This document shows, piece by piece, positions 47,732 through 56,836 of a stretch of DNA of 64,000 bases; the stretch's first letter is position 1, and the number at the start of each line of letters is the position of its first letter. Both the position numbers and the translations under genes were made by a program. This DNA comes from Chloroflexota bacterium (GTDB lineage: Bacteria > Chloroflexota > Chloroflexia > Chloroflexales > Herpetosiphonaceae), in the NCBI GenBank assembly GCA_020161265.1, contig JAIUOC010000006.1, forward strand, positions 62,001 to 126,000, written 5' to 3'. Below the pieces are notes generated by a model, which saw nothing but the letters and a program-made list of their open reading frames with translations, did not search any database and had not been told where the DNA came from.

Positions 47732-48811
47732 TTAGCCTAACAACGGAATAACCTCAAGTGGTGCATCGCTGCTATCATCTAAATAGCGCTGAATCATGGC
47801 TGGCCGATAAATTCCGCGATCAGTCACGATGCTGCTAATCAGCTCTGGCGGGGTTACATCAAAGGCTGGATAATAGCCGCGCACGCCTTCAGGAGCGATG
47901 CGCTGACCATTCATCATTAGCACTTCATCACCGTTGCGTTCTTCAATCGGAATCTCAGCACCAGTTGCGGTGTTGAGATCAGGGCCATCGTAGCCCAACA
48001 CATAAAACGGCACACCATGACGTTTTGCCAGCACGGCGTTGGTATAGGTTCCAACTTTATTGGCAATCGAGCCATCGAGCGCAATGCGATCAGCAGCCGT
48101 TATATAAACCGTAATCATATCGCGACTAAAACAAAAGCCCGACATATTATCGTTAATGACGGTCACCTGTGAGCCAATTTCCAAGGCTTGCGAGGCAGTT
48201 AGCCGAATACCTTGGCCATAGGGTCGGGTTTCGGTGGGCATGACCGCAACTTGTTTGCCCTGTTTAACCACTGCCGTGTAGAGCATCCAATTAAAGGCCG
48301 CACCAGGATAGCAAACCGTCAAAACCGTATCGCCATCAGTCAACAACTCGGCTGCTCGCACGCCACAACGTTCGGCTGAACGGTCGCCACGCTGAATTTC
48401 GCCCGCAACATAGCCATAAACCACCTCGTTTGGAGCTTGATTTTGCTCAAGTGCCTGCAAGGCTAAGCGTTCGGCCTTAGCCAAAATGGTGTGTAAATCG
48501 TCGGCAGTTGGGCGAGTGCGGCGCAAGCGTTCCAAAGCTTGGGCTAAAACCACTTGCTGTTGTGCCAACGAATAGTCACTAGCTTGATCGAGGGCTAAGG
48601 CCAACCCATAGCCAGCAGCATAGGCCAAGGGTGGGCCACCCTGAATCACCATCGTCTCGATGGCTTGAGCCACGGCTTCAAGATCAGCACAATCAACCCA
48701 CAAAGTTTGGGCCGGATACAAACGGCGATTTAATATAGCAACAATGCCTTTTTCGCGGTCGTAGCGCAAGGTATCGCCACGGCGGGTCAGCAAAGGTAAA
48801 CGTCCAGTCAT
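47732..48811 (-). CDS. mtnA: MtnA-like isomerase (methylthioribose-1-phosphate isomerase family)
   Basis: 359 residues from ATG 48811 with GAGG six bases upstream. The eIF2B-alpha/MtnA fold is evident: TVCYPGAAFNW with the catalytic-type Cys167, ITAADRIALDGSIANKVGTY with Asp241, GAEIPIEERNGDEVLMMNG and AFDVTPPELISSIVTDRG. Classical MtnA converts methylthioribose-1-P to the ribulose form in methionine salvage. Here the phosphate-binding RGAPAIG is replaced by IQGGPPLAYA and the HCNAG loop by VCYPG, so the substrate may differ. Ribose-1,5-bisphosphate isomerase-like or another salvage role is possible. An MTA/SAH-deaminase-like fusion is at 50623. Extended -10 TGCTACAAT lies upstream on the minus strand. 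Confidence 0.8.
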   Translation of the reverse strand: MTGRLPLLTRRGDTLRYDREKGIVAILNRRLYPAQTLWVDCADLEAVAQAIETMVIQGGPPLAYAAGYGLALALDQASDYSLAQQQVVLAQALERLRRTRPTADDLHTILAKAERLALQALEQNQAPNEVVYGYVAGEIQRGDRSAERCGVRAAELLTDGDTVLTVCYPGAAFNWMLYTAVVKQGKQVAVMPTETRPYGQGIRLTASQALEIGSQVTVINDNMSGFCFSRDMITVYITAADRIALDGSIANKVGTYTNAVLAKRHGVPFYVLGYDGPDLNTATGAEIPIEERNGDEVLMMNGQRIAPEGVRGYYPAFDVTPPELISSIVTDRGIYRPAMIQRYLDDSSDAPLEVIPLLG

Positions 48812-48922
48812 CAGCAACCTCATCTATGTTATGATGCTAAAATTGTAGCAGAGATTGCGCCGCAACTGGCTTGAGCGTGGTAGGATAGCGTACAAAGCAG
48901 CAAACTAAGGCAAAGGATCGCA

Positions 48923-50622: not shown

Positions 50623-52605
50623 ATGGCTTTACAACAAATTGATACCCTGCTGCTTAACGGCATCGTCGTCACAATGGACGCAGCAGGCACGATCATTCGT
50701 GATGGTGGGGTGGCAATTCAGGCTGGTGCAATCGTCGAGGTCGGGCCAAGCAGCCAGTTGCGCGAACGCTATACCGCCAGCCAAACGATCGACTGTAACA
50801 ATCATGCCATTGTGCCTGGCTTAATCAATGGCCATGCTCACGTTCCAATGAGTTTGTTGCGCGGCATCGTCGCCGATCAGCAGCTGGATGTGTGGCTCTA
50901 TGGCTATATGTTTCCAGTCGAAAGTCGCTTTGTTAACCCCGAATTTGTCTACCATGGCACGCGCCTCTCGTGTGCCGAAATGATCAAGGGCGGCATTACC
51001 AGCTTCGTCGATATGTATTATTTCGAGGAAGAAGTAGCCCGCGCCGCCGATCAAGCTGGGATGCGGGCGATCTGTGGTCAAACTGTGATGAAATGGCCCA
51101 CCCCCGATGCTGCTTCTTACGATGAAGGTCTCGAGCGCACTCGCCGCTTTTTCGAGCAATGGAAAAATCATGGTCGGGTGATTCCAGCGATTGCGCCGCA
51201 CGCACCCTACACCTGTAACAGCACCATCTATCGCGCTGCCGCCGAATTGGCCCGCGAATTCGATGTGCCGCTGGTAACTCACCTCAGCGAAACCGCCCGC
51301 GAAGTCGAAGAAGCTCGCCAGTTGGTCGATAAATCGCCAATCGCCTATGTCGCCGATTTGGATGCCTTTACCGATAAAGGGATTGCAGCCCATTGTGTGC
51401 ACATCGACAAACGCGATATGCAATTGCTCAAAAAGCATAACGCGGGAGCCGTGCCCTGTCCAACCAGCAACCTCAAACTGGCGAGCGGCGTGGCCAAATA
51501 TGGCGAAATGCTACAAGCTGGTGTGAATGTGGGGCTTGGCACTGATGGCCCTGCATCCAACGACGACCAAGATTTGTGGTTGGAAGTGCACTTGGCGGCA
51601 ATTTTGCCCAAGGGTGTCACGGGCGATCCCACTGTGGTCAACGCCAAGCAAGCCTTTGCTATGGCTACGAGCATGGGTGCTAAAGCTGTACACCTTGATC
51701 ATTTGGTTGGCAGCGTCGAAGCTGGCAAACGCGCCGATATCACAATTGTTGATTTGGGTGGATTGCACGTCGTGCCAGCCCCAGCCTACAACTACAGCAA
51801 CGATTCAATCTACAATCACTTGGTCTACTCAGCCCGCTCAGGCGATGTACGCCATGTGTTGATTGATGGGGCATTTGTGCTGCAAGATCGCCAATTGTTG
51901 ACGCTTGATGAAACCGAAGTTCGGAGCAATGCCCTGCGGATCGCCGAAACGATCAACCAATTCCTTAGCCAACGTGAAGTCAATTTGTTGGATAAAATTC
52001 TGGCAATCGGCGGAGTTAAACAAGCTGAAATCTTCGAAGTTCAAGTCAAAGCCCGTTTGGACGATGCTAGCAGCGTTGAAGCTTTCCTCGAATCGGAGGC
52101 GGTCGAAATTACCAAGGCGAGCGAACGCAAGCAATACGATACCTACTTCACCTTCGATGATCCCAATCGTGGGCGGATTCGCTACCGTGAAGATCATCGG
52201 GTTGATGGCTCGCGGCTTGAGCCAAAATACAATTTGACTTTGACCATGCCCAATGAACGCGAAGATTTGCCCTCGGCAGTCTTGCTTTCACGGGCACGCT
52301 ACACCGCGCCAGCTGATCGTTCGTTACGCTTCTATCGTGAATATTTCTCGCCCGATCATGTGATCGAAGTTGAGAAATATCGCCGCCGCTGGCGGATTAT
52401 GTATGGCGAGGTTGATTTTGCGATCAATATCGACATGATCACCAGTGGCCCGGCCAAAGGCACCTATTTGGAAATCAAGAGCCGCACATGGTCGGCCCGT
52501 GACGCTGAAGGCAAAACCCAAATCATCAGCGAATTATTGCAATTGGCCGGAGTTACGCCCGACCAAATTATCAAGCAAGAATACGTTGAATTAGCCCAAG
52601 CTTAA
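50623..52605 (+). CDS. Amidohydrolase (MTA/SAH deaminase type) fused to CYTH domain
   Basis: 660 residues. Residues ~1-430 form a metal-dependent amidohydrolase close to methylthioadenosine/S-adenosylhomocysteine deaminases. Metal ligands are His71 and His73 in GLINGHAHVP, His193 in APHAPYT, His220 in VTHLSET and Asp308 in LGTDGPASN. Residues ~465-655 match a CYTH (triphosphate tunnel) domain: FEVQVKAR (variant of E-x-E-x-K, second Glu is Gln), YDTYF, GRIRYRE, KYNLTL, RARY, EVEKYRRRW, and GTYLEIKSR. CYTH proteins bind triphosphates or act as adenylyl cyclases/triphosphatases. A fusion of these two is unusual. Start has AAGGAGG at good spacing. It follows a structured leader. Confidence 0.85.
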   Translation: MALQQIDTLLLNGIVVTMDAAGTIIRDGGVAIQAGAIVEVGPSSQLRERYTASQTIDCNNHAIVPGLINGHAHVPMSLLRGIVADQQLDVWLYGYMFPVESRFVNPEFVYHGTRLSCAEMIKGGITSFVDMYYFEEEVARAADQAGMRAICGQTVMKWPTPDAASYDEGLERTRRFFEQWKNHGRVIPAIAPHAPYTCNSTIYRAAAELAREFDVPLVTHLSETAREVEEARQLVDKSPIAYVADLDAFTDKGIAAHCVHIDKRDMQLLKKHNAGAVPCPTSNLKLASGVAKYGEMLQAGVNVGLGTDGPASNDDQDLWLEVHLAAILPKGVTGDPTVVNAKQAFAMATSMGAKAVHLDHLVGSVEAGKRADITIVDLGGLHVVPAPAYNYSNDSIYNHLVYSARSGDVRHVLIDGAFVLQDRQLLTLDETEVRSNALRIAETINQFLSQREVNLLDKILAIGGVKQAEIFEVQVKARLDDASSVEAFLESEAVEITKASERKQYDTYFTFDDPNRGRIRYREDHRVDGSRLEPKYNLTLTMPNEREDLPSAVLLSRARYTAPADRSLRFYREYFSPDHVIEVEKYRRRWRIMYGEVDFAINIDMITSGPAKGTYLEIKSRTWSARDAEGKTQIISELLQLAGVTPDQIIKQEYVELAQA

Positions 52606-55837: not shown

Positions 55838-56836
55838 TTAACTTGGTGGAATAACTGAATCCTGGGGTAAGCCTTGGCGGCGCAACATACCGCGTAAAAT
55901 GCCAAAGCGCAAACGAGCCAATTGAGCTTGAGCCGCAATGCTGGTGCGTAAAGCCGCCTCGACTTTGCTGCGACGAGCTGGTTCTATTGGCGCTGCGACT
56001 GGTGCTAGTTGGTTTTGTTCACTCAGGTAGGTTTTGGCGCTTTGATAGCCCAAATCCATCAATTGGCTGCTATAGCGAAAATCACGCACATCAAGCCCAC
56101 TGTAATGCAACATTTGAATATGATGCACTTTGACTCCAGCCTTAGCTGCCAAGCGCACTAATTCGCGTTCATGAGCCATTTGACGACGCATCAAGGCATC
56201 AAAAGTGCGGGTCAACGAGCCACGCATCCCAAACGGCGGCACGGTGGCGGCTGCATCAAGCCCAATTTCCAAGGCCCAAATTTCGCTAGCCCCTTGTTGC
56301 AAAGCCACGCCAATTGGCAAATTCGAGACGAACCCACCATCAAGGTAAGTTTCGCCGCGATAATGATAAGCAGGCAAATAGGGTGGCACGGCAGCGCTGG
56401 CCATCAAGGCATCAACCAAGCGCTCACGGGGATCATCGCCAAACAAATGCATATCACCAGTGCGATAATTGGTGGCCGTGACAAAAAAGGGAATGGACAA
56501 ATCGCTGAAGCGCCGAATATTGGGCGGTAGCAGCGAGAGAATAAAGCGTCGCAAGCCATGATTATGATGCAGCGAACCACGCCCACGCACCACCCGCCAG
56601 GCTGAGCGCAACGAACCACCAGGAAAAATATCCTCGCGCTTGACGCTTTTCCAGCGCTGGGCGATGCGTTGAATGCCAGCTAAACTAGGATGACAAGCTA
56701 AAACTGCCCCATTGATTGAACCAACCGAGGAACCAACGACTAAATCGGGGATAATGCCGGCTTCGAGCAGCGCGAGAGCTGCTCCGGCTTGGAGTGAGCC
56801 GCGATTGGCTCCACCACTAAAGACAATTGCACGCAT
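55838..56836 (-). CDS. Patatin-like phospholipase
   Basis: 332 residues. A lipid acyl hydrolase with Ser-Asp dyad. GGANRG (oxyanion region) at residues 8-13, the nucleophile elbow GSSVGS (Ser ~37) and DGGFVSNLP with the Asp ~167. The C-terminal tail beyond residue 280 is basic and helical. No signal peptide, resembling RssA-type cytoplasmic patatins. It lies next to phospholipid synthesis genes, so it may help in membrane turnover. Ribosome site AAAGG eight bases upstream. Confidence 0.9.
   Translation of the reverse strand: MRAIVFSGGANRGSLQAGAALALLEAGIIPDLVVGSSVGSINGAVLACHPSLAGIQRIAQRWKSVKREDIFPGGSLRSAWRVVRGRGSLHHNHGLRRFILSLLPPNIRRFSDLSIPFFVTATNYRTGDMHLFGDDPRERLVDALMASAAVPPYLPAYHYRGETYLDGGFVSNLPIGVALQQGASEIWALEIGLDAAATVPPFGMRGSLTRTFDALMRRQMAHERELVRLAAKAGVKVHHIQMLHYSGLDVRDFRYSSQLMDLGYQSAKTYLSEQNQLAPVAAPIEPARRSKVEAALRTSIAAQAQLARLRFGILRGMLRRQGLPQDSVIPPS

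Follow-up and report, generated by a model that had tools for sequence, protein, structure and literature searches.

The locus raises the question of what a protein that joins a nucleoside deaminase to a triphosphate tunnel might do, and whether its tunnel is still an enzyme. The gene lies at positions 50623..52605 of the window, by which we mean the whole 64,000-nucleotide stretch of the Herpetosiphonaceae contig JAIUOC010000006.1 that was analyzed. All positions below refer to this window and, unless stated otherwise, to its forward strand.

Domain layout and fold

The gene encodes a deaminase-CYTH fusion of 660 amino acids in a single open frame throughout. Residues 1-430 (50623..51912) form an amidohydrolase domain of the MTA/SAH/5'-deoxyadenosine deaminase type, a two-helix linker follows at residues 430-462 (51910..52008; AlphaFold2 helices 430-453 and 455-462), and residues 466-660 (52018..52602) make up the CYTH, or triphosphate-tunnel, domain. 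In Pfam, Amidohydro_1 spans residues 63-417 (E 1e-71) and CYTH (PF01928) spans residues 472-634, with 25.6 bits when the full protein is the query and 28.9 bits when the query is cut down to its last 220 residues, both above the curated cut-off of 23.2 bits. No Pfam match to a CHAD domain was found in the fusion protein. The full-length AlphaFold2 model has a pLDDT of 89.0 and a pTM of 0.82. The initial annotation had described this pairing from the letters of the DNA and named a profile search and a structure prediction as checks. Both bear it out, and the CYTH motifs that it listed are found where it placed them.

The C-terminal part is predicted to adopt the eight-stranded tunnel fold. An AlphaFold2 model of residues 441-660, built with 40 homologues, has a mean pLDDT of 91.2 and eight long strands, and its top fold matches (Foldseek, VIA-align) are solved CYTH/TTM proteins: 2een at Z 17.3, SaTTM (7ns9) at Z 16.4, and the class IV cyclase 3n0z at Z 16.0. 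Med18 chains follow at Z 11-12 and a Vtc4p chain (3g3r) at Z 9.4. Searching PDB chains by sequence with the CYTH part, as a single sequence and as a 40-row profile, returned nothing up to E 10. The alignment of the fusion CYTH profile to canonical Chloroflexota CYTH proteins by hhalign was also weak (probability 4%). Residues were therefore mapped strand by strand, and the correspondence on strands 5 and 6 derives from strand order and parity.

Judged from its residues, the deaminase center is intact. The initial annotation held that every metal ligand is present, and this is what we find: the HxH ligands H71 and H73 (50833..50841), the ligand H220 together with the catalytic E223 (51280..51291), H257 (51391..51393), and the ligand D308 (51544..51546) are each invariant in 53 of 53 homologues. 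The nearest solved relatives are 4dyk (about 290 bits across residues 6-433), 4gbd, 4f0r, and 4dzh, of which 4f0r is named as an MTA/SAH deaminase. The fusion shares the fold, the HxH/H/H/D metal set, and the catalytic Glu of this family (TM0936; 4dyk, 4f0r, 4dzh). Family members are 400-480 amino acids long and have no C-terminal domain, whereas the fusion carries a CYTH domain at that place.

Distribution and selection

The fusion is real and old. Matches to the CYTH part occur in 61 of 301 Chloroflexota genomes, one in each, and the deaminase part is found at 45% identity or more in the same 61 genomes, the two lists having been compared by eye. The two parts share one open frame in all of these genomes but one, where the gene is split between contigs. 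Sixty of the 61 CYTH matches fall within open frames of about 660-890 codons; the remaining one, in a frame of 347 codons, is at the end of a contig. The next matches to the deaminase part reach at most 39% identity, in frames mostly of about 440-500 codons, and some genomes with the fusion also hold such stand-alone relatives. We conclude that the pairing of deaminase and CYTH domain is no chance fusion.

Deaminase domains of fusions are phylogenetically distinct from those of stand-alone enzymes. A maximum-likelihood tree of deaminase domains, 24 from fusions and 20 from stand-alone proteins, groups the fusions in one clade (support 100/100), which divides into a part with the order of this genome and a part with the rest. 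In a contig scan across 84,980 species, among the best 80 loci, nearly all are titled Chloroflexota or one of its classes, including Herpetosiphon, Chloroflexus, Roseiflexus, Oscillochloris, and Anaerolineae. Two of these fusion genes lie on contigs titled Singulisphaera and Pleurocapsa, which may be misbinned or misnamed Chloroflexota.

Within Herpetosiphon, purifying selection acts on the CYTH part, as indicated by low Ka against Ks (0.013 versus 0.186, and 0.049 versus 0.69).

Kept and altered tunnel residues

The tunnel combines a conserved phosphate cradle with altered metal motifs. Strand 1 carries E472-x-Q474-x-K476 (52036..52050), an altered ExExK, invariant in 54 of 54 homologues. Equally invariant are the RxR phosphate cradle of strand 3 within R520-x-R522-E523-D524 (52180..52194), K585-x-R587-x-R589 on strand 6 (52375..52389), and N602-x-D604 on strand 7 (52426..52434). 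Strand 5 has R557-x-R559 (52291..52299; R557 in 53 of 54, R559 in all 54) where canonical CYTH proteins have RxExE (R81-x-E83-x-E85). Strand 8 has E617-x-K619 (52471..52479; 54 of 54) where they have ExE (E161-x-E163), so that the C-terminal LEIKSR is an ExE metal motif turned into ExK. The basic cradle (K476, R520, R522, K585, and R587), the first Glu of strand 1, and the metal-1 ligand E617 are thus kept, while the ExExK and ExE motifs of active triphosphatases are replaced by ExQxK and ExK throughout the 54 homologues. Canonical CYTH proteins of relatives in the same genus, family, and order, and of this genome, where a separate one of 522 codons is present, have ExExK, RxR, TxK, RxExE, D, and ExE intact.

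Solved tunnel enzymes indicate what these replacements may mean. In AtTTM3, Glu169 is the ligand of metal site 1, which binds the triphosphate; the other metal centers are built from Glu2, Glu4, Glu90, and Glu171, and site 2 among them activates water; mutation of Glu2, Glu4, or Glu169 strongly lowers activity (PMC4641920). Three of the four counterparts of Glu2, Glu4, Glu90, and Glu171 are gone from the fusion tunnel. With Q474, an Arg for the strand-5 Glu, and K619, metal site 2, the activator of the attacking water, should be removed, and we predict that it is absent. The initial annotation had noted the Gln and suggested that it may weaken metal binding; the Gln is correct, and the loss extends to the change of ExE into ExK and to the strand-5 Arg. 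Its proposal that the domain might cleave triphosphates is unlikely to hold for the known two-metal route, as metal site 2 should be missing.

Comparison with described tunnel proteins places the fusion among domains of known kinds; what is new is the architecture and a distinct tunnel signature. SaTTM, E. coli YgiF, and AtTTM3 share with it the eight-stranded tunnel, the first Glu and the Lys of ExExK, RxR, the strand-7 Asp, and the first Glu of ExE. The fusion differs from canonical TTMs in its ExQxK, its ExK, the Arg for the strand-5 Glu, and the loss of the Lys of LTxK, and its partner is an amidohydrolase rather than CHAD. In a survey of CYTH proteins, the partner domain in multidomain clusters is either CHAD or a phosphoribulokinase domain (PMC8233210). 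A parallel to the signature is the tunnel domain of Vtc4p, the yeast polyphosphate polymerase, where metal site 1 alone is kept and site 2 is lost, as predicted for the fusion, and which likewise lacks the second Glu of the acidic patch (PMC4641920). Vtc4p is only a distant fold match, and its tunnel is attached to other domains as part of a membrane complex.

Plant TTM1 and TTM2 (P-loop kinase-CYTH) resemble the fusion in that an enzyme domain precedes a CYTH domain without the usual metal motifs, although their partner is a phosphoribulokinase-like domain. The W/YxRxR motif, the rule for thiamine triphosphatases (PMC8233210), is kept in TTM1 and TTM2 and absent from the fusion, where residue 518 is Arg in 47 homologues and W or Y in one each. 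These plant proteins still cleave pyrophosphate without ExExK and ExE (PMC8233210), and the tunnel residues of the fusion are strictly kept, so that its CYTH domain could be a working, altered phosphohydrolase and the protein bifunctional. We nevertheless consider this unlikely: a Lys stands in for the metal-2 Glu and an Arg for the usual strand-5 Glu, and no water-activating metal site is evident.

Conservation suggests that selection acts to preserve the tunnel interior. Strand positions conserved at 98% or more number 19 facing inward and 5 facing outward, with facing set by chosen anchors and an entropy test without anchors being not significant (p 0.28); invariant tunnel residues occur on all eight strands. 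This pattern bears on a role as a scaffold for oligomerization or partner binding, with no small ligand, as Med18 has in Mediator. The Med18 fold matches indicate that such a fold can be non-enzymatic, and high conservation extends to the outward-facing E523, S556, and T622 and to the helix RFYREYF. However, the Lys, Arg, and Glu residues that line the tunnel at i, i+2 on each strand are invariant, and a scaffold would have no need of them. We regard a scaffold as slightly less likely than an altered phosphohydrolase.

Gene neighborhood and proposed function

The deaminase substrate is proposed to be an adenosine-like nucleoside of the MTA, 5'-deoxyadenosine, or adenosine class. The best NCBIfam score of the fusion protein is 445 bits against a cut-off of 540 (NF006549), followed by 332 (cut-off 522) for the 5'-deoxyadenosine model and 240 (cut-off 779) for that of MTA/SAH. 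No equivalog cut-off is reached for deaminases of MTA/SAH or of 5'-deoxyadenosine, so that the assignment stops at the class of substrate. The fusions are thus set apart from stand-alone MTA/SAH-type deaminases both by their clade and by falling under every one of these cut-offs.

Two arrangements of neighboring genes recur, neither of which suggests a deaminase substrate. A coaE-like gene lies just 3' of the fusion gene, and in the same orientation, in about a quarter of the loci (25 or so, from Chloroflexales, Roseiflexus, and some others), often at a spacing of -4 to +36 nt; it is absent from this place in Herpetosiphon. Many Anaerolineae-type loci, seven of them recorded individually, have a cinA-like gene upstream, and a gene encoding a carboxypeptidase-like protein often lies between the two. 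The coaE and cinA identities were read from their sequences rather than from a profile search.

Two other genes of the window were recorded on its reverse strand. One, at 47732-48823, 1.8 kb upstream of the fusion, is a second, divergent MtnA-like gene, found at this place only in Herpetosiphon. It scores 294 bits with PRK05720, above the cut-off, and 236 bits with TIGR00512 (mtnA), below the cut-off of 279 (both NCBIfam), and it reads VCYPG in place of HCNAG, the usual active-site stretch of MtnA. The other, at 55838-56836, encodes a patatin-like phospholipase with a weak match to a CBASS phospholipase model (55 bits against a cut-off of 200).

Gene context does not support the suggestion of the initial annotation that the enzyme couples by-products of SAM to nucleotide pools. 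In the Herpetosiphon genome, metK, ahcY, and a canonical MtnA gene (442 bits) lie together in a single stretch of contig 1, and genes for MTAP and for a purine nucleoside phosphorylase are found elsewhere. With ahcY, MTAP, and canonical MtnA in the same genome, disposal of MTA and SAH need not depend on the fusion enzyme. A survey of neighbors found no methionine-salvage operon around the fusion homologues, whose neighbors are coaE or cinA. There is accordingly a slim chance, below that of a scaffold, that the protein is a methionine-salvage enzyme acting mainly on MTA or SAH, with an incidental CYTH part. Its nearest solved chains, including the named MTA/SAH deaminase, and the second MtnA-like gene nearby speak for such a role; the salvage genes elsewhere in the genome, the lack of a kept operon, and scores under every equivalog cut-off speak against it.

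A class IV adenylyl cyclase, which the initial annotation had allowed for in naming the making of cyclic nucleotides, is very improbable: its fold is close and NCBIfam cyaB gives a weak match (27 bits against a cut-off of 57.95), but the motif rule of HFxxxxExExK with Ala in place of the second Glu of ExE (PMC8233210) fails in the homologue alignment, where residues 466-467 are mostly Q/M/K/E then Q/E in place of HF, the first Arg of RxR is kept rather than small, and residue 619 is Lys.

The reading we prefer, at about an even chance of being right, is that of a metal-dependent nucleoside deaminase with a C-terminal phosphate-binding, non-hydrolytic tunnel as a regulatory domain. A sensing role, which the initial annotation had also raised, fits as a reading of the altered tunnel. 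The tunnel would bind a triphosphate-like ligand, such as an NTP or polyphosphate, whose phosphates would be held by metal site 1 or by K619 and which would stay uncut. Occupancy of the tunnel may then change deaminase activity, and nucleoside turnover would follow nucleotide or phosphate status. The analysis shows the conserved fusion, the intact deaminase center, the CYTH fold, and a tunnel that has lost its site-2 residues but kept its basic cradle, whereas we infer ligand binding, the lack of hydrolysis, allostery, and the deaminase substrate alike. More tentatively, and at somewhat less than an even chance, the tunnel has swapped its catalytic metal for lysine and conveys nucleotide or polyphosphate status to the fused deaminase across a large part of the Chloroflexota.

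Domain libraries detect both domains, while the amidohydrolase-CYTH pair itself has no description in the literature searched; the one paper there that mentions both the CYTH domain and Chloroflexi concerns, by its title and abstract, PIWI families. What most bacterial CYTH proteins do physiologically is not known. A protein in which a CYTH domain stays tied to a single enzyme through much of a phylum, and in which an invariant Lys replaces the catalytic metal site, would let the idea of the tunnel as a sensor be tested directly. If the reading is true, a deaminase family that had been regarded as single-domain may be controlled by energy or phosphate status, and the triphosphate tunnel would have a new regulatory use.
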